From Deltaproteobacteria bacterium (lineage in GTDB: Bacteria > Desulfobacterota > GWC2-55-46), in contig JACRET010000009.1 of assembly GCA_016218105.1 (NCBI GenBank), positions 1 through 64,000 on the forward strand: a stretch of DNA of 64,000 bases, written 5' to 3'. The translations under genes were made by a program, and so were the position numbers. This document shows positions 2,741 to 37,174 of the stretch, piece after piece. Position 1 is the stretch's first letter, and each line of letters opens with the position of its first letter. The notes under the pieces are model-generated. The model was not told where the DNA came from. It did no database searches and saw nothing but the letters and a program-made list of their open reading frames with translations.

Positions 2741-2769
2741 CCCGGCGGCTTGCCGCGGGGAGCTTCAAT
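2741..2769 (-). repeat. Repeat B fragment overlapping hemA stop
   Basis: This is the right end of repeat B (CTTGCCGCGGGGAGCTTCAAT). On the minus strand it begins ATTGAAGCTCC, and the TGA in that string is the stop codon of hemA (2765-2767). Confidence 0.7.
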
Positions 2770-4069
2770 CGTCATTATTCTGGGCCTTTTTGACGGCCTC
2801 TTCGTCTATCGTGAGGTCAAAGAGCTTCCGGATCGTATCTATGTAGAGGTCTCCCTCGATCTTATTCGCTTCTTTCTTAAGGTGCGTCACAGGGTGATGG
2901 AGGATCTTGTTTACTATCGCCGATGACATGGCGTCAAGCGCCTTACAGTCTTTTTCAGAGAGATTGTTCAGGGCAGACAGCGCCTTTGCAAGCTCCGCCT
3001 TCCTTATCTGGTCACAGGCCTGCCTGAGGGCGATGATAGTCGGCACGACGTCCAATGATTTTATCCAGCGGTAGAACTTCTCTATTTCCTCGACTACTAT
3101 CCTCTCAGCCTGCTCGGCTTCCTTGGCCCTCTCCTGGAGGTTGGCCACGACTACGCCCTGAAGGTTGTCCACGTCGTATACGTAGCAGTTGTCTATATTG
3201 TTGATGAGCGGGTCGACGTTCCTCGGAACGGAGATATCTATGAAGAACATGGGTTTGTGCTTCCGTTCCTTCATTACGTCATGGATCTGGTCAGGCCTTA
3301 TGATGAAGTTGGGCGCGCCGGTTGACGCGATTACGATATCGACGTTTTTAAGGTAATGGGGAAACTCGCGGAACATTATGGCCGTGCCGCCAAATCCCTT
3401 GACCATCTCAACGGCCTTTTCATATGTCCTGTTGGCGACCAGTATCTCCCTGATGCCGTTTGTCATCAGGTGCTTTGCGGCAAGCTCCGCCATCTCCCCC
3501 GCGCCGATCAGCATTACGGATTTTCCGGACAGGTCCCCGAATATCTTCCTCGCCAGCTCAACAGCCGCGAAGCTTATGGATACGGCGGACTCTCCTATCT
3601 TTGTCTCGCTCCTGATCCTTTTGGCTACCTGAAAGGCCTTATGGTAGAGTTTATTTACGATGACGCCCGCAGAGTTATGCTGGACGGCATAGCCGTAAGA
3701 GTCTTTTACCTGGCCGAGTATCTGAGGCTCTCCCATTACCATTGAATCGAGCCCCGCGCCGACCCTGAAGAGGTGTTTTACGGCATCCTCGCCGCAGTGG
3801 ACGTAAAGATGGTCATCGAGCTTTTCAAGCGGGATATCATGGAAATCCGAGAGGAACCGCTTTATCTGCCAGACCCCTTTTTCCATATCGCTGGTAATGG
3901 CAAGCACCTCGACCCTGTTGCAGGTCGATAATATGACCCCTTCATTCAGCCCGTAATGGTTCGTGAGCCTCTTAAGGGGTTCGCCGATCGTTTGCGCCGG
4001 GAAAGAGAGCTTTTCCCTTATCTCTATCGGCGAGGTCTTATGGTTTAGTCCGACTATTATGAGGTTCAT
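2765..4069 (-). CDS. hemA: Glutamyl-tRNA reductase
   Basis: HemA reduces glutamyl-tRNA to glutamate-1-semialdehyde with NADPH, the committed step of the C5 haem pathway. The 434 residues match the family. The N-terminus IIVGLNHKTSPIEIREK and the catalytic cysteine C50 in ILSTCNRVEVLA are diagnostic. The NADPH-binding motif is visible in SVMLIGAGEMAELAAKHL, and the C-terminal dimerisation helices are complete. It lies 51 bp downstream of ccsA on the same strand. The last codons and the TGA stop lie in a fragment of repeat B, so the element appears to have supplied the present stop codon. A slightly longer ancestral C-terminus is possible. Confidence 0.97.
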   Translation of the reverse strand: MNLIIVGLNHKTSPIEIREKLSFPAQTIGEPLKRLTNHYGLNEGVILSTCNRVEVLAITSDMEKGVWQIKRFLSDFHDIPLEKLDDHLYVHCGEDAVKHLFRVGAGLDSMVMGEPQILGQVKDSYGYAVQHNSAGVIVNKLYHKAFQVAKRIRSETKIGESAVSISFAAVELARKIFGDLSGKSVMLIGAGEMAELAAKHLMTNGIREILVANRTYEKAVEMVKGFGGTAIMFREFPHYLKNVDIVIASTGAPNFIIRPDQIHDVMKERKHKPMFFIDISVPRNVDPLINNIDNCYVYDVDNLQGVVVANLQERAKEAEQAERIVVEEIEKFYRWIKSLDVVPTIIALRQACDQIRKAELAKALSALNNLSEKDCKALDAMSSAIVNKILHHPVTHLKKEANKIEGDLYIDTIRKLFDLTIDEEAVKKAQNNDD

Positions 4070-4120
4070 CTTCCGATTATATCCGCAACTGCCGGAAAAG
4101 CCCCGGCTCCTTGTGTTTTT

Positions 4121-4939
4121 TTACTGCGAGAGGCCGTGCGCGCCGCCTGAAATGAAGTTGATTATAATGAATGAACCTAAAAGGATCATGAAAGCGGTGC
4201 CTGAGAATATCGCCGCTTTTTTACCGCGCCACCCGGCCGTAAGCCTTCCGTGGAGGAGCGCGGCGTAGAGAAACCATGTGATGAGAGACCATATCTGCCT
4301 GGGCTTCCAGTCCCAGTAGCTGCCTATGGCGTACTCAGACCAGACCGCGCCAGTTATGATGGCGATGGTCAAAAGCGGAAAGCCGTATTGCAGGCATTTA
4401 TAATTAAGCTCATCAAGCGTCTCCAGGGACGGGAGTATGAAGTAAAGGCCCTTGAGCTGCCTTTTCTTTAGATAACGCTCCTGTATTATGTACATTATGC
4501 CCAAAAAGAAGGCCAGGGCGAAAAAGGCATTGCCCATGAAGGCCAGTATAACGTGTACCGGCAGCCAGTAGCTCTCAAGAACAGGCGCAAGCGGTATGAT
4601 TTCCTTGGGCAGCAGGGACGCCGTCAATATGAGGAGCAGCGCAAATGGGCTCACAAAAGCGCCGAGCACCTTTTGCCTGTACCTCAAAAGCACAAGTATG
4701 TAAAGCGCAACCGTAATCCAGGAAAAGAGCGTCAGCGATTCGTGGAGGCTTGTTGCCGGGGTGCGCCCCGCCTCTATCCAGCGGGCTATTATGGTAGCCG
4801 TGTGGGTTAAAAACCCGGCGATAAGGATCGACTGGGCAACCGTGATGAACTTGTCCTTACGCGAAAAGAGATAGGCTGTGAAGACGAAAGTGGCCATCAG
4901 GTATACCACCGCTGTTATATGGAAAAATATTTCACTCAC
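4121..4939 (-). CDS. ccsA: Cytochrome c assembly membrane protein, CcsA/HemX-like
   Basis: This 272-residue, eight-helix protein belongs to the CcsA/ResC family of System II cytochrome c biogenesis, which moves or presents haem for covalent attachment to apocytochromes outside the inner membrane. The tryptophan-rich signature lies at residues 200-222, including GSYWDWKPRQIWSLITW. Candidate haem-ligand histidines are H46, H66, H129 and H230. The GTG start at 4939 lies 5 bp after the sirC stop, so translation is probably coupled. Next to hemA, the related HemX (a regulator of HemA level) is an alternative. The many c-type cytochromes in this window favour the assembly role. Confidence 0.88.
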   Translation of the reverse strand: MSEIFFHITAVVYLMATFVFTAYLFSRKDKFITVAQSILIAGFLTHTATIIARWIEAGRTPATSLHESLTLFSWITVALYILVLLRYRQKVLGAFVSPFALLLILTASLLPKEIIPLAPVLESYWLPVHVILAFMGNAFFALAFFLGIMYIIQERYLKKRQLKGLYFILPSLETLDELNYKCLQYGFPLLTIAIITGAVWSEYAIGSYWDWKPRQIWSLITWFLYAALLHGRLTAGWRGKKAAIFSGTAFMILLGSFIIINFISGGAHGLSQ

Positions 4940-4944
4940 AGATA

Positions 4945-5628
4945 TTACTTTACCCCGCCTTGCCCTTTAAGTTTGATGCCGGCCCCGGACAGGGTGTATC
5001 CCTTTCCGAGGAGTTCCACGAGAAACCCTTCTACCTTCCTGAAATCTTTTTCCTTAATCCACCCCGGTATCGGAGAATTCACCAAGGCTTTGAAAACTCT
5101 CTCTTTTTTAACATGATTCATATTGCTTTTCAATAACTTCTTCCTCACGGCCCCGAGGATATCCACAAAGGTTTCGTACTCGCCGCCTATTGTTTTTTCA
5201 AGCCCTTCCCTCAGTTTCCGGGCGAGCGCCGGGCTTTTTCCGGAGGTCGAGATGGCGATTATGAGGCTGCCCCTGTCTACTACCGAGGGGACTATGAAGC
5301 TGCAGCGCTCAGGGTCATCAACCGTGTTTATAAGGATACCGGCCCTCAAGGCCTCATTATATACGGTCTTGTTTACGCTTTCCGAATCAGAGGCCGAGAC
5401 AGCTAAAAAAACCCCTGTAAGGTCGCCCTCCCTGTATCTTCTTTTAATGAGGCTGATAGAGCCTTTTTTCGCGAGGCTATCAAGGGTTTTTGAAATCCTG
5501 GGGCTGATGACCGTTACAGACGCGCCTGCCTTAAGGAGCCCTTCTACCTTTCTTTCGGCGACCTTTCCTCCTCCGATCACCTTGCAGGGCTTATCTTTTA
5601 TGTCCGCGAATACGGGGTAGTAGCGCAT
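4945..5628 (-). CDS. Precorrin-2 dehydrogenase / sirohydrochlorin ferrochelatase
   Basis: This 227-residue protein matches the Met8p/SirC-type N-terminal domain of CysG. It oxidises precorrin-2 with NAD and may insert iron to give sirohaem. The NAD-binding motif is VIGGGKVAERK (about residues 18-27), and the conserved NTVDDPERCSF segment carries the catalytic aspartate and a cysteine. The methyltransferase half of CysG is absent. It is the first gene of the sirC-ccsA-hemA-hemC cluster. In organisms with cytochrome cd1, haem d1 derives from sirohaem, so this enzyme may also feed the NirS encoded at 19135-20868. Confidence 0.9.
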   Translation of the reverse strand: MRYYPVFADIKDKPCKVIGGGKVAERKVEGLLKAGASVTVISPRISKTLDSLAKKGSISLIKRRYREGDLTGVFLAVSASDSESVNKTVYNEALRAGILINTVDDPERCSFIVPSVVDRGSLIIAISTSGKSPALARKLREGLEKTIGGEYETFVDILGAVRKKLLKSNMNHVKKERVFKALVNSPIPGWIKEKDFRKVEGFLVELLGKGYTLSGAGIKLKGQGGVK

Positions 5629-29779: not shown

Positions 29780-31222
29780 ATGAAAAGATACGACCTTATA
29801 ATAATCGGCGGCGGCGTTGCCGGACTGGTCTCCGCAAGCGGGGCGTCCCAGCTTGGCGCGCGTGTCGCCCTGATCGAGAAGCTGTCGTTGGGCGGAGACT
29901 GCCTTCGGGCAGGCTGCGTGCCGACCAAACGGCTTATTGAGTCCGCCAAAGTAGCCTCGGCCGTAAAAGGGGCCGGCAGGTTCGGGCTGAGGGTGAACGG
30001 CGCCAAAGTAGACTTTTCAGCTGTGATGGAGTCGATGAGGAAGGTTCAGGCGAAGATAGGTGAAAACGACGCCCCGGAACGCTTCAGGTCCATGGGGGTA
30101 GAGGTCGTCTTTGGCTCAGGACGATTCACAGACCCGCATACATTCGAGGTAAACGGGCAAAGGCTCTGGGGTAGAAGGTTTATCATCGCTACCGGCTCAA
30201 GCCCCCTTGATCCGGCGATGCTCTCGATACCCGGCTTGAAGGAGGCTGGCACGCTCAATAACGAATCGGCGCTTGAATTAGAGCGGCTCCCTCAATCGAT
30301 AATAATCCTTGGCGGGGGGCCGATAGGCGTAGAGTTCGGGCAGATATTCGCAAGGTTGGGCTCGAAGGTCACGATCATAGAAAGGCATGGGCAGCTATTG
30401 TCCAGAGAGGACAAAGAGCTTGCGGAAATGCTGGGTAAGGCCCTCGTAGCCGAGGGAATTGATATAGAGTTCGGCTTTGAGGTCAAAGAGGTTGTAAACG
30501 CAGGGGGCAAAAAAGCCGTTTACGGGCGGTCTTTGAAAGGAGACAAGGTATTCAGGGCCGAGGAAATAATGCTGGCGGCCGGGCGCACCCCGAACGTAGG
30601 GGGGCTGAATCTTGAGGCCGCCGGGGTCGAATACGACAAGAAAAAGGGGATAAAGGCGGACAAGGCCCTGAGGACGACGCAGAAGCATATATTTGCCTGC
30701 GGCGATGTCGCGGGCCCATACGCATTTACCCATGTAGCTGAATACCATGCGGGAATCGCGCTTGGTAACGCGCTCTTCCCAATCTTCATGAGAAAAGCGG
30801 ATTACAGGGTGGTGCCGTGGACTACCTTTTCAGACCCGGAGCTCGCCAGGGTAGGCCTTACTGAGGATGAGGCCCGGGCAAGGTTCGGGGAAGATTCGAT
30901 GCGAGTCTACAGATTTCCCTTTAAAAAGGTCGACCGGGCTGTTATAGAAGAAGAGCCTGAAGGTCTCATAAAGCTCGTCTGCGACACGAAAGGCAGGATA
31001 CTCGGCGCGCATATATTAGGGCCTGGCGCGGGAGAGCTCCTTCCGGAATACGTGCTCGCGATGAGAAAGAAAATACCTGTAAAGGAAATATCCAGGTCGA
31101 TACATGTGTACCCGACGGTCGCTCAAGGCCTTAAAAGGGCGGCTGACGAATATTACAGGGCGAAGCTCTTTACGGGATGGTTCCCTAAGATAGCAAGGTT
31201 TATCGTAAGGCGGGGCAGGTAG
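29780..31222 (+). CDS. Mercuric reductase/dihydrolipoamide dehydrogenase-like flavoprotein
   Basis: The 480-residue protein is a class I pyridine nucleotide-disulfide oxidoreductase. FAD binding is seen in LIIIGGGVAGLVSASGA. The redox pair is C41/C46 in GGDCLRAGCVPTK. The NAD(P) site is IILGGGPIGVEFGQIFARLG and the second FAD site is HIFACGDVAG. The C-terminal dimer domain keeps the catalytic histidine in IHVYPTVAQ. It lacks the C-terminal vicinal cysteines and N-terminal metal-binding domain of true MerA, so mercury reduction is unlikely. Such genes are often paired with a TVP38 membrane protein, as here with 5 bp spacing. The substrate is unknown. Confidence 0.88.
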   Translation: MKRYDLIIIGGGVAGLVSASGASQLGARVALIEKLSLGGDCLRAGCVPTKRLIESAKVASAVKGAGRFGLRVNGAKVDFSAVMESMRKVQAKIGENDAPERFRSMGVEVVFGSGRFTDPHTFEVNGQRLWGRRFIIATGSSPLDPAMLSIPGLKEAGTLNNESALELERLPQSIIILGGGPIGVEFGQIFARLGSKVTIIERHGQLLSREDKELAEMLGKALVAEGIDIEFGFEVKEVVNAGGKKAVYGRSLKGDKVFRAEEIMLAAGRTPNVGGLNLEAAGVEYDKKKGIKADKALRTTQKHIFACGDVAGPYAFTHVAEYHAGIALGNALFPIFMRKADYRVVPWTTFSDPELARVGLTEDEARARFGEDSMRVYRFPFKKVDRAVIEEEPEGLIKLVCDTKGRILGAHILGPGAGELLPEYVLAMRKKIPVKEISRSIHVYPTVAQGLKRAADEYYRAKLFTGWFPKIARFIVRRGR

Positions 31223-31227
31223 AAACA

Positions 31228-31887
31228 ATGCGCGGTAACCTGAAATTCATAATCTTTATATTGTTGATAATAGCCGCGGCCGTTTCAGTCAGGGTATTCG
31301 GCCTTACGGATTACCTTGACAGGGAGCGTTTAAGGCTCTGGGTGGAATCGTTCGGCTTATGGGGGCCGATAGTTTACATATTGATATACTCCGTGGGGCC
31401 GAGCCTCATGATGCCGGGGCTTCCGATAACCGTAATAGGCGGCGTCCTCTTCGGGCCGGTTTGGGGGAGCATATATGTGCTTCTGGGCGCGACGATCGGA
31501 GCGGGTATCGCCTTTCTCATAGCCCGGTATATGGGGAGGGGCTGGGTAGAGACTATAGTAAAAGAGAGCAGATTCAGGGAGCTTGATAAAAAGGTCGAAG
31601 CCCATGGCTGGAAGATAGTGGCCTTTACGAGGCTTATCCCCTTGTTTCCATATAACTTCCTGAATTACGCCTTCGGCCTGACCAGGGTCAGGTTCCTCGA
31701 TTATCTCCTCGCCACCTTCATATTCATGATACCGGGGGTGGTCGCCTACGTAGTATTCTCAAGCTCGATACTCGACCTCCTGAAGGGGGTTCTTTCAAGG
31801 CAACTCATAATCGGACTGATACTGGTCGCGATAGTCGCTATTATCCCCTTTATCTATAAAAAGATGAGGAAGGGCGAGAGGCCTTGA
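31228..31887 (+). CDS. TVP38/TMEM64 (DedA-like) membrane protein
   Basis: The 219-residue inner-membrane protein has the VTT/SNARE-associated domain: GPIVYILIYSVGPSLMMPGLPITVIGGVLFGPVWG near residues 47-80, the reentrant-loop segment FTRLIPLFPYNFLNYAFGLTRV, and further helices. Members of this superfamily move or scramble lipids or small solutes. It lies 5 bp after the flavoprotein gene, so the two are one operon and likely work together. Pairs and fusions of these two proteins are known in other bacteria, though their joint task is not established. Confidence 0.9.
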   Translation: MRGNLKFIIFILLIIAAAVSVRVFGLTDYLDRERLRLWVESFGLWGPIVYILIYSVGPSLMMPGLPITVIGGVLFGPVWGSIYVLLGATIGAGIAFLIARYMGRGWVETIVKESRFRELDKKVEAHGWKIVAFTRLIPLFPYNFLNYAFGLTRVRFLDYLLATFIFMIPGVVAYVVFSSSILDLLKGVLSRQLIIGLILVAIVAIIPFIYKKMRKGERP

Positions 31888-32195
31888 TTACCGTTCCGGT
31901 TTAATCGGGTGCTCTCGGCGGAAATCCCGCCCTTTTAAGGGCGGGTCAAAGCCTGATTTTCCAAATCTGGTTTAAACTGCCTTTTTTGGGGAGTTGTCAG
32001 CGGCTGCGTGAAAATTAAAGTTATTGAACAAACCCCGTATTTTAAGTTAAAATCCGTTGAGCCCTATGTTTATGCGGGTACTGAGATGCAAGTCCGGTCA
32101 AACCTCTCTTATTGAATTTCATGCGGCAGGGTACAGGAAAACCCTGCTCTTTTTTTTGGATTTTGAGTCAGCACATCATCTGTAGCGGATTGGGA
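31888..32195. other. Leader region of response-regulator gene
   Basis: The palindrome CCCGCCCTTTTAAGGGCGGG at about 31927-31946 is a second copy of the one near 24719. The stretch 32045-32118 (CCGTTGAGCCC ... TGCAAGTCCGGTC) is structured-looking but I cannot match it to a known riboswitch class. A terminator follows at 32126-32157. Confidence 0.4.
32126..32157 (+). terminator. Intrinsic terminator 38 bp before response-regulator start
   Basis: The stem GCAGGGT/ACCCTGC with an 8-base loop is followed by TCTTTTTTTT. It may end the TVP38 transcript or act as an attenuator for the downstream regulator. Confidence 0.8.
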
Positions 32196-33275
32196 ATGGA
32201 CGAGCGTAAGAGGAACATCTTTATAGTCGATGACGAAGAGCCCATACGGAAGGTGCTCAATACCCATTTGACCAAAGAGGGGTTCAACGTCATACAGACT
32301 CAGGGCGGCAACGGCGTCTTCGAGACCCTCACGCAGAACACCTTCGACCTGGTAATAAGCGATATCAGGATGCCCGAGGTAGACGGCATCAGGGTGCTCG
32401 AGTTCGTAAAGGCGAACTTCGATACCGTCCCCGTAGTGATGCTTACGGGGCTTACGGATATATCCATAGCCATAGATGTGATGAAGAAGGGCGCGTTTGA
32501 TTTTTTAATGAAGCCCGTTAAAAAAGACGAGCTGATGGCCGTTGTGCATAAGGCGCTCTTGACCAGGGACCTCCTGGAGAGGAATAAGGAGCTGGAGGTT
32601 GAGAACAAGGAGTATCAGCTCTTCCTTGAGCAGAAGGTCAGGGAACGGACCAAGGAGCTTAATTCGAAGGCTATGGAGCTTCAGAGGGCATACGGCGTCC
32701 TTAAGTCCATGAACATCCAATTCGTAAATGTCCTTGCGGAAACCATTGAAGCGAAAGACCGCCACACAAGGGGCCATTGTAACCGGATGCGGTATCTTTG
32801 CGTGGAGCTTGGGAGGCAAGCCGGGTTATCCCCCGAGGACCTTGAAACGCTTGAATACGCATCCCTCCTCCATGACCTGGGCAAAATCGGCATCAATGAG
32901 GCTGTGCTCAATAAGGAAGGCCCGCTTACCGGAGACGAGTGCACGCACATCAAGGCCCATACCGAGATCGGCGAAAAGATACTTATCGGGATACCTCTGA
33001 TGGAGCAGGTCGCGAAAATAATAGTAGCCCACCACGAGAACTTTGACGGCACCGGATATCCGAGGAACCTGAAAGGCGATGATATACCGTTCTGCTCAAG
33101 GATAATAGCGGTCGCCGATATCTATGACGCCATGAGCTCAGACCGCCCGTACAGAAAAGGCCTTCCGCTGGAGGCCGTCATTGAAGAGATGCGCCGGGTC
33201 TCGGGCACCCAGCTTGACCCGGAACTGGTAGGTATATTCATTGAAAAAAAAGTTTATCTCTTTAATAAGAACTGA
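32196..33275 (+). CDS. Response regulator with HD-GYP output (RpfG-like)
   Basis: The 359-residue protein joins an N-terminal receiver domain to a c-di-GMP phosphodiesterase domain. The phosphoacceptor is D56 in LVISDIRMPEVDG, with acidic residues in VDDEE and the conserved lysine in LMKPVKKDEL. A coiled linker (about 125-175) leads to the HD-GYP domain with LLHDLGKIGI and HHENFDGTGYP. The frame opens at 32112, but that start lies upstream of an intrinsic terminator. ATG 32196 gives the normal receiver start (MDERKRNIFIVDDEEP). The haem-containing sensor kinase 148 bp downstream is the probable partner. Confidence 0.9.
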   Translation: MDERKRNIFIVDDEEPIRKVLNTHLTKEGFNVIQTQGGNGVFETLTQNTFDLVISDIRMPEVDGIRVLEFVKANFDTVPVVMLTGLTDISIAIDVMKKGAFDFLMKPVKKDELMAVVHKALLTRDLLERNKELEVENKEYQLFLEQKVRERTKELNSKAMELQRAYGVLKSMNIQFVNVLAETIEAKDRHTRGHCNRMRYLCVELGRQAGLSPEDLETLEYASLLHDLGKIGINEAVLNKEGPLTGDECTHIKAHTEIGEKILIGIPLMEQVAKIIVAHHENFDGTGYPRNLKGDDIPFCSRIIAVADIYDAMSSDRPYRKGLPLEAVIEEMRRVSGTQLDPELVGIFIEKKVYLFNKN

Positions 33276-33423
33276 CCTTGCCGCAGCGCCCTTATCCCCA
33301 AAAGGAGAGCCTGGAAGCGTATGGGCAAACATCATCCTCAAACCCTCAAGGCCATAAATCCTTTAAAGAATCCCGCCTTTTTTCCGATAGGGATTAATGA
33401 GCTGAAAAAACGGTGCGCCTGCC

Positions 33424-35181
33424 ATGAATAAGTTTCGTTCGATGCTTAATTACCTGGTTATCGCCATCATGGCCTTCATGATAGCGATAGTAGCGCTCTT
33501 TGTTTATACAAGCATCCATCTGAAAAACAAGGTCATCTTCAGGACCGTCCAGCAGACGGAGCTCGTATCCGAGCTGATAGCGCGCTCAGCGGTGGATATC
33601 ATGAGCGGCGGTCACGGCGGCGGCAATTATTCGATGATCCTGGCGAATAGCAACCAGATAGGCGTAGATTACATAGGCATATTCAGGTTGAGCGGAGATG
33701 AAGCCACGTTCGGCGAGACCGGCCCCAAATATATCTACAGGAAAGACAGGATAGGATCGAATGAAAAAGATACATTCCTTAAATCCATAGAGACGCTCAA
33801 TTCAAGCGGGTTCTTTGACAGTGAGGTGTCGACTTATTCCAGATATGTGCCGCTTAAGGCCGAAGGGCCGTGCCTGGAGTGCCACACGAATGAGGGAGAG
33901 GTACTGGGGGTACTTAAACTCAGGCTCTCCACGGAGAGCGATTTTGAGCTGCTGAATTATATGAAGAGGCTGATATGGGCGATCGGGCTCATAATCTGCC
34001 TGCCCGTGGGAGCGCTCTTCATGGCGGGCCTCGTGATAAGGGATAAGAACAGGATATACGCAAAGCTCGAAGAGAGCAACTCGAATCTGAGAAGGACATA
34101 TAATGACCTTCACGATACCGAGTATTATCTTCAAATGATCCTCGACAATTCAAGGGTCATTATAGTAACCACCGACACGGAAGGCCGCATAGTAAAATTC
34201 AATAAGGAGGCGGAAGCGCTCCTTGAATACAAAAAAGAAGAGGTCGTGGGCAAGGATGTCCTGATGCTTTATGAGAATTCCAGGCAGCGCTCCGATCTCA
34301 TGAACAGGGGGCAGTCGGTAAACGACGGCGTATGGGAAGTCAGGAACAGGGATGTGCGCTTCCGCTCAAAGTCCGGGAAGATCTTTCATATAAGCCTTAC
34401 GCTCTCGACCATGATAAACGACAGCGGAAAGATCATCGGAACGGTCGGCATCGGAAAAGACGTATCGGAGCAGAAGATGCTCCAGTTCAAGATACTCCAG
34501 TCGGAAAAACTGGCAGGCATAGGAACTCTCGCCTCCGGCATAGCCCACGAGATAAATAATCCCCTTGCGGGGATACTGGGCATGGCGGAAGCGGTACTGG
34601 AAGAAGATGACCTTGATATAATAAGGTCGCATACAAAAGATATCATCCAGTACACGATAAACGCCCGGGATATAGTCAGGGAGCTTTCCATCTATTCGCG
34701 CTCGGCGCAGAATATGGCGGAAGCCACAGTGGACATAGCTGCCGTAATAGACAATTCGGTAAAGATGGCCAGGCATTCGGCGTCCTTTTCCGGCATAGAG
34801 CTGATCTCCGATCTCCACAGGGAATGCGTAATAAACGCCAACCCCGTGGAGCTTCAGCAGGTATTCGTAAACCTTATCGTAAACGCCATACACGCGATGG
34901 AGGACAGGGGCACGCTTACGCTTCGGTGCTGGAGGGAAGGCAGCTTCATAAAGGCAAAAGTCTCTGATACGGGTCAGGGCATTTCAGAGAAGAATTTGAG
35001 CCAGATATACGACCCGTTCTTTACGACAAAGCCGGTAGGCATGGGAACGGGGCTGGGGTTGTATGTGGTCTACAGGATAGTGACCAAGTACGGCGGAGCG
35101 ATAGACGTAGAGAGCAAGGCAGACATAGGCACCGCGTTTACCCTGAGGTTCCCGGCCGCCGGCGGCGAGGCTATAGGGTAG
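33424..35181 (+). CDS. Sensor histidine kinase with periplasmic c-haem domain
   Basis: The 585-residue kinase has membrane helices at about 9-31 and 184-206. The periplasmic domain between them carries a haem c attachment motif, C150-L-E-C153-H154, in a DUF3365/Tll0287-like context (YVPLKAEGPCLECHTNEGEVLGVLKL). A PAS domain (about 235-350), HisKA with H375 in ASGIAHEINNPLAG, and an ATPase domain (DTGQGISEKN ... GTGLGLYVVYRIV) follow. I infer sensing of redox state or a haem ligand such as NO or CO outside the membrane. The likely output is the HD-GYP regulator upstream. The downstream porin and phosphate-binding-like protein follow within 111 bp. Confidence 0.9.
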   Translation: MNKFRSMLNYLVIAIMAFMIAIVALFVYTSIHLKNKVIFRTVQQTELVSELIARSAVDIMSGGHGGGNYSMILANSNQIGVDYIGIFRLSGDEATFGETGPKYIYRKDRIGSNEKDTFLKSIETLNSSGFFDSEVSTYSRYVPLKAEGPCLECHTNEGEVLGVLKLRLSTESDFELLNYMKRLIWAIGLIICLPVGALFMAGLVIRDKNRIYAKLEESNSNLRRTYNDLHDTEYYLQMILDNSRVIIVTTDTEGRIVKFNKEAEALLEYKKEEVVGKDVLMLYENSRQRSDLMNRGQSVNDGVWEVRNRDVRFRSKSGKIFHISLTLSTMINDSGKIIGTVGIGKDVSEQKMLQFKILQSEKLAGIGTLASGIAHEINNPLAGILGMAEAVLEEDDLDIIRSHTKDIIQYTINARDIVRELSIYSRSAQNMAEATVDIAAVIDNSVKMARHSASFSGIELISDLHRECVINANPVELQQVFVNLIVNAIHAMEDRGTLTLRCWREGSFIKAKVSDTGQGISEKNLSQIYDPFFTTKPVGMGTGLGLYVVYRIVTKYGGAIDVESKADIGTAFTLRFPAAGGEAIG

Positions 35182-35199
35182 TTTTTTCATAAGGTTATT

Positions 35200-35274
35200 A
35201 TTGAAGCTCCCCGCGGAATCCGCGGGGAATCTTCGATATGTAAGGAAATAATTTCTATGCGCTCGCTATGCATA
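35200..35274 (-). repeat. Repeat B (reverse) immediately upstream of porin gene
   Basis: A repeat B with shortened centre fills the gap between the kinase stop and the porin ribosome-binding site. It starts ATTGAAGCTCC, contains the CCCCGCGGAATCCGCGGGG hairpin and ends GCTATGCATA. The porin Shine-Dalgarno AAGGAGGGG begins 5 bases after it. Confidence 0.85.
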
Positions 35275-35291
35275 ATCAAGGAGGGGATAGG

Positions 35292-36428
35292 ATGAGGCTT
35301 GTCAAGCGGCTTTTTGAACTCTTGATCGTTCTGGCGCTGGCTTCGGGACCGGTGCTGGCAGCGGACGTTAACACACTCGAGAAAGAGATTCAAAATCTCA
35401 AAAAAGAAAACTCGGACCTTAAAGAGCGCGTTGACGCGATAGAGGCCGATGATGAAGAGCTAAAGCACGGCATCGGGTCGTTGTCAAAACTCGTTGAGGT
35501 GAGCGGTTACGCCGACGCTGAATTTTTCCTTACCGGCCAGGAAGGGGAGAACAACAAATTCCGTATCCGCCATTTAAGCCTGTTCTTCACAAAGGAAATA
35601 CAGACGCAATGGAAGCTGTTTACGGAGATCGAATTTGAGGGCGCTCCCAGGATAGAGTCTAATACGGCTACGGATACCGTCAAGAGCTCGCAGGGGACGA
35701 TCTTTGTAGAGCAGATGTACATAGAATACCATCCCGCCGTGAGCTGGGACATGAGATTCGGCAGGTTTCTTACGCCAGCCGGCATATGGTCCATCTATCA
35801 TTATCCGCCGTACGTTCCTACCCAGAGCGCGCCACTTATCTTCAAAGTAATCTTCCCCGAGGTGTCCGACGGGGTGCAGCTGAGGAACTCATTTACGCTT
35901 AAGGATTCGGCCCTGGACACGCACCTTTATCTGTCAAACGGTTCAGGAAATCCCGGCAGGCTCGACCGTAACGAAAACAAGGGCGTAGGACTGAGGATCA
36001 ATTCCGATCTGCTGGCGGGCTTTTCCACGGGGGCTTCGTACTTCAGGGAACAGGACAACGACGGCACCTGGAAGAACAGCTATGGAGTTCATTTGCTTTA
36101 TGGGTACTCGGCCGTTAAGTTCCAGGCAGAGTACGAGCTCCGCCATAATAGCCCTGAAGGTGAGGATTCATTTAATGATCTTGGCGGATATCTTCAGCTA
36201 GCGTATGATATCGGCAAATGGACGCTTGCCGGTAGGTATGACTGGTACGACAGCAGCTCAAAAATTTCCGATAACACGCAATCGCGCTATACCGGCGCTA
36301 TTAATTATCATTTTGGGCACAATGTGATAGGAAAATTTGAGGTCAACAGGAACAAGTTTGACGCTCAATCGATCCAGGACTACAATGAAGCCATACTGGG
36401 CATAATCGTGGCAATAGGAGACCTGTAA
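35292..36428 (+). CDS. Outer-membrane porin, phosphate-selective (OprO/OprP) type
   Basis: The mature protein should sit in the outer membrane. From ATG 35292 there are 378 residues: a signal peptide (MRLVKRLFELLIVLALASGPVLA), a short coiled coil (LEKEIQNLKKENSDLKERVDAIE) and a beta-barrel. Typical porin features are SGYADAEFF, IRHLSLFFTKEIQTQWKLFTEIEFEG, and the final NRNKFDAQSIQDYNEAILGIIVAIGDL. An upstream in-frame ATG (35268) lies inside repeat B and is unlikely. The gene is 3 bp upstream of the phosphate-binding-like gene, so both share a transcript with or after the haem sensor kinase. Confidence 0.85.
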   Translation: MRLVKRLFELLIVLALASGPVLAADVNTLEKEIQNLKKENSDLKERVDAIEADDEELKHGIGSLSKLVEVSGYADAEFFLTGQEGENNKFRIRHLSLFFTKEIQTQWKLFTEIEFEGAPRIESNTATDTVKSSQGTIFVEQMYIEYHPAVSWDMRFGRFLTPAGIWSIYHYPPYVPTQSAPLIFKVIFPEVSDGVQLRNSFTLKDSALDTHLYLSNGSGNPGRLDRNENKGVGLRINSDLLAGFSTGASYFREQDNDGTWKNSYGVHLLYGYSAVKFQAEYELRHNSPEGEDSFNDLGGYLQLAYDIGKWTLAGRYDWYDSSSKISDNTQSRYTGAINYHFGHNVIGKFEVNRNKFDAQSIQDYNEAILGIIVAIGDL

Positions 36429-36431
36429 GAG

Positions 36432-36875
36432 ATGAGGATCTTGTCAAAGATCGTTCTGGGCGTCTTTTTTATAGCAATGCTCTTCCCGGCGGCCTTTGCC
36501 TCCGAGCAGGTCGCTATTATCGTAAACAGGGCAAACCCGGTTGAGAAGCTGGACGCAAGGGAAATAAACAAGATTTTCACCAATAAAACGCTTTTATGGC
36601 CCGACGGCACCCCGATAACATTATACGATCTTTCGATAGGCGACCCGCTGCGTTCAGTTTTTTCGGATGAGATTCTTGGAAAGACACCTGACATGGTAGC
36701 CGAGGAATGGGCGCACCTGAAGATTGCCAATCAGGCGAAGAACCCTCCCCAGACGATGAAGAGCCAGGCGCTTATCATACGGAGGATTTCCAGGGAGAAG
36801 GGCGCGATAGGATACGTGTCGATCGGTTCAGTAAAGAACAACCCCGATGTCAAGATAATCAATACCCTTCAGTAG
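36432..36875 (+). CDS. Short PstS-like periplasmic binding protein
   Basis: The 147-residue exported protein (signal peptide about 1-23) resembles half of a PstS-type phosphate-binding protein. VAIIVNRANPVEKLDAREINKIFTNKTLLWPDG is the familiar start, and AIGYVSIGSV the end of the domain. Full PstS is about twice as long, so this is a single-lobe form rather than a complete transporter protein. No ABC transporter genes follow. Next to a porin and sensor kinase, it could be a ligand sensor or scavenging protein. Its stop codon overlaps by 7 bp the end of the convergent gene at 36869. Confidence 0.85.
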   Translation: MRILSKIVLGVFFIAMLFPAAFASEQVAIIVNRANPVEKLDAREINKIFTNKTLLWPDGTPITLYDLSIGDPLRSVFSDEILGKTPDMVAEEWAHLKIANQAKNPPQTMKSQALIIRRISREKGAIGYVSIGSVKNNPDVKIINTLQ

Positions 36876-37174
36876 CCGCCAGCCCTCACGCCATTAGTAT
36901 CCAATTCCCCGACCGGCCTCTTGAACGTGTACTCGATCGGCTCACCGATAAGCTTCTCGGCTGTTACCCCTACGCTGCCGGTAGGGAGCGAGAACGGCAG
37001 GGCGGCCACAAATAGAGCCGTCCCAACGACTATGGCGGCGATCCCGAGCGGCCTTGTGAATATGATGTCAAAGGCCATGGCGCCTCCCGTAGGCTCTCTT
37101 TTGTCCGAAGCCAGCGAGAGCGTCGAAACGGCCAGGAAGATGAAAAGGAAGATGGGGACTAACGCCTTTTTCAT
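36869..37174 (-). CDS. Small exported/membrane protein of unknown function
   Basis: I do not recognise this 101-residue protein firmly. It has a signal peptide or first helix (residues 4-22), a second hydrophobic helix (about 44-64, RPLGIAAIVVGTALFVAALPF) and a hydrophilic C-terminus (EPIEYTFKRPVGELDTNG). Similar small proteins occur in delta-type Proteobacteria without known function. The last seven bases overlap the stop region of the convergent PstS-like gene. The start is ATG 37174. Confidence 0.6.
   Translation of the reverse strand: MKKALVPIFLFIFLAVSTLSLASDKREPTGGAMAFDIIFTRPLGIAAIVVGTALFVAALPFSLPTGSVGVTAEKLIGEPIEYTFKRPVGELDTNGVRAGGY

Follow-up and report, generated by a model that had tools for sequence, protein, structure and literature searches.

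A predicted haem c sensor kinase encoded with an HD-GYP regulator and a recurring porin and half-size PstS pair in a deltaproteobacterial genome

A gene cluster in a draft deltaproteobacterial genome of 2.9 Mb (assembly GCA_016218105.1) encodes a c-di-GMP phosphodiesterase response regulator, a sensor histidine kinase, an outer-membrane porin and a half-size relative of the binding protein PstS, which raises the question of what the kinase perceives and what the last two proteins contribute. The initial annotation of this DNA, made from the sequence alone, described a haem-binding kinase and proposed that redox or gas sensing outside the cell controls c-di-GMP, with a phosphate-type porin and a PstS-like protein serving either as outputs or in signal capture. 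The window analysed here is the whole stretch of 64,000 nucleotides, part of the 79 kb contig JACRET010000009.1. The evidence discussed below indicates that the sensor probably reads redox state or NO outside the cell via a predicted covalent haem and controls c-di-GMP, and suggests that the recurring pair of a pore and a half-protein is a shared, apparently undescribed sensing accessory.

Layout and conservation of the cluster

The four genes lie in tandem on the plus strand, as the initial annotation had it (Table 1). The regulator combines a REC domain with HD_5/HD matches, and its phospho-acceptor Asp, HDxGK and HHExxDGxGYP residues are all intact and largely conserved among orthologues. 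Its best NCBIfam match is to the NosR-family c-di-GMP phosphodiesterase response regulator (NF053512; residues 8–350), with a score of 247 bits that falls below the 400-bit cut-off of that family. The intact HD-GYP residues and the 18 GGDEF matches in the source genome support the proposed c-di-GMP output.

Table 1. Features of the cluster and its flanks (positions in the window)
Feature	Position	Strand	Basis
Putative promoter (32024-32053) and short leader with intrinsic terminator hairpin (32125-32158), upstream of regulator	32024..32158	+	Consensus scans
Response regulator, REC + HD-GYP c-di-GMP phosphodiesterase	32196..33275	+	Domain matches; conserved active-site residues
Sensor histidine kinase: TM, periplasmic sensor, TM, PAS, HisKA (H375 in HEINNP), HATPase_c	33424..35181	+	
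Periplasmic sensor, Cache/PAS-like, sCache_heme type, residues about 30-185	33511..33978	+	Model, Foldseek, sub-threshold PF21563 and PF11845
His64, candidate distal haem ligand	33613..33615	+	Conservation among orthologues
CLECH, haem c attachment motif, residues 150-154	33871..33885	+	Orthologue alignment
Outer-membrane porin, OprO/OprP-like, N-terminal coiled-coil-like stretch	35292..36428	+	PF07396, PF13609; ORF and RBS
Half-size PstS: signal peptide (by inspection) and one PstS lobe	36432..36875	+	Pfam, model, Foldseek
Small convergent ORF downstream of half-PstS	36869..37174	-	No Pfam match

A profile of the kinase sensor matched in 20 of 61 genomes of the class, once as a fragment, and the orthologues were seen in three families of one order only; on these grounds, the view that the haem kinase itself has a wide distribution was discarded. 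The named relatives that carry the kinase are uncultured ‘Deltaproteobacteria’, e.g., GWB2_55_19, many of them from groundwater. Eighteen loci were fetched around kinase orthologues, four of which (L044, L050, L052, and L056) are interrupted by contig ends. Regulator and kinase are adjacent in every relative that has both on the contig, and the order kinase, porin, half-PstS is found in 11 of the 14 loci with sufficient downstream sequence, so that the cluster passes the test of conserved gene order, one of the two by which the initial annotation proposed to refute itself. The remaining loci comprise L053, in which the half-PstS is present and the porin absent, and L055 and L057, which keep the kinase and lack both partners. 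The kinase thus persists in relatives without the haem motif and in relatives without the pair, which makes the two traits separable. An extra single-domain receiver gene, absent in the window, lies between regulator and kinase in L050, L051, L052, L054, L056, and L057.

The promoter-like and terminator-like elements upstream of the regulator can be aligned in three relatives of the same genus, and the leader is possibly an attenuator or small RNA. Folding of the leaders upstream of the regulator was not clearly better than that of shuffled sequences, and an Rfam scan across the window returned tRNA as its sole match. Identity of the leader with the known RNA ncS16 is not claimed, its score being 25.9 bits against a cut-off of 48, with six pairs broken. 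Upstream of the cluster, at 29780–31887, lie genes for a flavin disulphide reductase (MerA/lipoamide dehydrogenase-like) and a VTT-domain membrane protein, a pair that is kept in several relatives. The small convergent ORF is likewise a neighbour kept in relatives, yet probably stands outside the system.

The kinase sensor domain and its predicted haem site

Pfam matches identify PAS, HisKA and HATPase_c domains in the kinase. They are preceded by an N-terminal part that bears CLECH and is flanked by two long, transmembrane helices (residues 3–61 and 171–231 of the AF2 model). A CxxCH motif is kept in 16 of 19 kinase orthologues at a sensor-region identity of 40–72%, which argues that CLECH is not a chance motif. 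All 19 keep Cys150 and Cys153, and residue 64 is His in each of the 16 orthologues with CxxCH. The three kinases without the haem motif all belong to one genus and read CESCD (L053:174-1904), CEECE (L054:5730-7475) and CEECS (L057:9737-11473); both Cys are retained there, whereas His64 is replaced by Tyr, Arg and Tyr, respectively. Because it is lost in the same three kinases that lose the His of CxxCH, His64 is the likely distal haem ligand of the sensor, a candidate drawn from sequence comparison; the three haem-less sequences may represent a single evolutionary event rather than three.

The AF2 model of the sensor (pLDDT 78.5) has a Cache/PAS-like fold, and a Foldseek search with it returned the Geobacter haem c domains 3b42 (GSU0935; E 6.9e-5) and 3b47 (GSU0582; E 2.4e-3), as well as numerous Cache domains. 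Against these domain-swapped crystal forms the TM scores are low and the rmsd high. With the sensor alone as query, a PDB sequence search gave no match, and a profile was needed; this yielded a weak alignment with GSU0582 (E 0.07), in which the helix bearing Met60 and His64 aligns with the Met60 helix of GSU0582. The CxxCH of the kinase was aligned with the CQSCH of GSU0582 and GSU0935, the latter of which uses Met60 as its distal ligand (PMC8396549). The sensor scores 14.9 bits with PF11845 (cut-off 24.1) and 14.8 bits with PF21563 (cut-off 27), both below threshold, with weak matches in 9 and 12 of 17 orthologues, respectively. Motif conservation, the fold match to GSU0935 and GSU0582, and the joint loss of the candidate distal His support the reading as a haem c-type sensor.

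The domain resembles the sCache_heme families (DUF3365/Tll0287, PF11845; Mcp40H-20_sensor, PF21563; Geobacter GSU0935 and GSU0582), which are likewise periplasmic and Cache/PAS-like, carry CxxCH near the C-terminal end, and are fused to signalling modules (PMC12889525, PMC8396549). It differs from them in its sub-cut-off scores, in a predicted distal His64 placed one helical turn past the Met60 position, and in having a sister clade without the haem motif in which both Cys are kept.

As for the signal, the Geobacter GSU proteins undergo redox-linked ligand switching and bind CO and NO (PMC8396549), and a signalling-linked member of the haem-Cache family has NO-sensor properties, as described in a preprint (PMC12889525). 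In the source genome a search for NrfA found none, and aa3- and cbb3-type oxidases are encoded, so that oxygen, redox and NO are equally plausible as signals. The genome contains four Cytochrom_C_asm matches relating to cytochrome c maturation, among them CcsB at window positions 4124–4939. The ccsB gene is clustered at 2768–5628 with hemA and a gene for a siroheme synthase N-terminal domain, a region of haem and cytochrome c biogenesis.

The porin and the half-size PstS

The porin, for which the start in Table 1 is the likelier one, being preceded by AAGGAGG, matches both Porin_O_P (PF07396) and Porin_4 (PF13609). Its PF07396 score of 38.2 bits exceeds the cut-off of 20.9, yet the match covers just profile positions 12–93 of 370. 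The half-size PstS is 147 amino acids long, and its match to PBP_like_2 is confined to profile positions 89–192 of 267; the two lobes that characterize PstS are not both present. Its model (pLDDT 90.8, about 98 in the core) corresponds to one PstS lobe, with a Foldseek E value of 5e-7 to 4exl and TM scores of 0.63 by query and 0.36 by target.

Residues of the lobe-2 loop bind phosphate in E. coli PstS. This loop, R...SGTR in the C. perfringens protein, reads L...DPLR in the half-PstS of the window. The S-G-T loop is lost across 74 half-PstS sequences and prevalent in those full-length PstS proteins that can be aligned; in the half-size family a Phe three residues past the loop is invariant and a PP pair typical. 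Given this substituted loop and the absence of a second lobe, canonical phosphate binding is unlikely judging from the sequence, and the ‘phosphate’ label is therefore doubtful. The phosphate specificity implied by the initial annotation is not supported.

Half-PstS genes of other families were collected across the class and phylum by sequence and profile, and their neighbourhoods were then read, a porin neighbour being defined by the same profile, the same strand and a distance of ≤3.5 kb from the half-PstS. A porin lies beside 36 of 40 half-PstS genes, mostly directly adjacent, a signalling protein near 33, and both near 30; four of the 40 are orthologues of the window cluster, and these locus counts are not independent of phylogeny. 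Full-length PstS controls given the same treatment had a porin in 0 of 21 cases and a signalling protein in 7 of 21. Some of the counted loci had served to train the porin profile; at loci outside this training set a porin was found for 17 of 20 half-PstS genes, a few scoring weakly. The linked receptors include histidine kinases, MCPs, and GGDEF, GGDEF-EAL and HD-GYP proteins with Cache or helical-bundle sensors. Small single-lobe PstS relatives are found in numerous Gram-negative genomes. Among 187 sampled genomes from the class of Marinomonas, 54 have a half-PstS profile match, a few of the matched proteins being longer. At 20 gammaproteobacterial loci that were fetched, the half-PstS typically has a porin gene as neighbour, and an MCP, kinase or GGDEF protein is often encoded nearby. 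A single genome of this class has up to eight half-PstS copies (L226, genome G309), some in tandem with porins.

The constant pairing of porin and half-PstS beside differing receptors makes the pair more likely to serve signalling than uptake, a conclusion from gene neighbourhoods, in which adjacency alone cannot separate input from output. Its recurrence beside many receptor kinds favours signal capture over the other role suggested for porin and binding protein. No description of such a module was found in the literature, although subscription journals were mostly beyond reach, which makes this weak evidence of novelty. If half-PstS proteins are receptor partners and not transport proteins, their phosphate-transport labels mislead and many receptors of unknown signal gain a testable input. 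The haem kinase is one tangible example, since its distal ligand is predicted to be His64 and a sister clade without the haem motif provides a natural control.

Signal input and related systems

A working model that we consider about equally likely to be right or wrong is that a haem c kinase responding to redox or NO drives c-di-GMP breakdown, with porin and half-PstS as an accessory input module. The kinase would sense the periplasm through covalent haem c in its Cache-like domain, in which His154 of CLECH would be the proximal ligand and His64 the likely distal one. A redox change of the haem, or displacement of His64 by NO or CO, would alter kinase activity; the kinase would phosphorylate the HD-GYP regulator and thereby alter c-di-GMP breakdown. 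Porin and single-lobe PstS, an outer-membrane pore and a small periplasmic adaptor, may feed or modulate the receptor as a second input, a role that the pair also seems to have beside other receptors. Within this scheme, the genes and their order, the conservation of the motif and of His64, the fold matches and the repeated occurrence of porin and half-PstS beside receptors are observed; we infer haem attachment, the identity of the signal, phosphotransfer and contact of the half-PstS with porin or kinase. Plausible, though with somewhat less than even chances, is the broader proposal that porin and single-lobe PstS constitute a general envelope-sensing module, in which the small adaptor would link a co-encoded inner-membrane receptor of any kind to a dedicated outer-membrane pore, relaying that pore's state or cargo; the window version would use a haem c kinase and thereby join two inputs in a single c-di-GMP output.

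These proposals must be weighed against the possibility, which we consider real but unlikely, that haem kinase and HD-GYP regulator form a self-sufficient redox or NO sensor, with porin and half-PstS as regulated outputs or as a transport pair for some anion. The haem kinase of L055, which has neither partner, is consistent with this, as are the GSU0935/GSU0582-type and sCache_heme receptors described without such partners (PMC8396549, PMC12889525) and the position of the pair 3' of the kinase in the window operon. Against this reading, the two proteins are found together beside receptors with unrelated sensor and output domains, including MCPs, which have no direct transcription control, and the identified neighbours, a minority of all neighbours, include no recognised ABC permease gene.

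Transmission of phosphate information to the kinase by porin and half-PstS, much as PstS serves the chemoreceptor CtpL (PMC6321045), agrees with that precedent and with the family labels Porin_O_P and PBP_like_2/PstS, but is very improbable, since lobe-2 R, S, G and T have become L, D, P and L, a family-wide change, and the other lobe is absent. We are similarly sceptical that sensing centres on the CxxC pair, acting as a disulphide switch or metal site, with CxxCH incidental in some lineages. The invariance of both Cys, even in the three orthologues without the His, would be explained in this way; against it, the His is fixed in the other 16, His64 covaries with it, the fold matches are to haem c domains, and the restriction of the CxxC form to one genus fits a secondary change.

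For the accessory-input model, a likeness in layout, and in layout only, is offered by YfiBNR (PMC3375315, PMC4655355), a similar three-layer relay of an outer-membrane protein, a small periplasmic protein and an inner-membrane c-di-GMP receptor. Here a β-barrel porin would replace the lipoprotein YfiB and a PstS lobe YfiR, while a kinase and an HD-GYP regulator stand in place of the GGDEF receptor. In PstS-CtpL, LuxP-LuxQ and TorT-TorS (PMC6321045), a periplasmic binding-protein fold is likewise encoded with an inner-membrane receptor, which the half-PstS, too, would probably modulate. In contrast to systems of the PstS-CtpL type, the half-PstS is single-lobed, is devoid of the canonical ligand residues, nearly always has a porin gene adjoining, and belongs to one family that is paired with many receptor types. 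The half-PstS domain also occurs inside longer proteins, one of 568 amino acids with a DnaJ domain (L239:3731-5434) and one of 674 amino acids with no Pfam match (L238:5244-7265), and a porin adjoins each.
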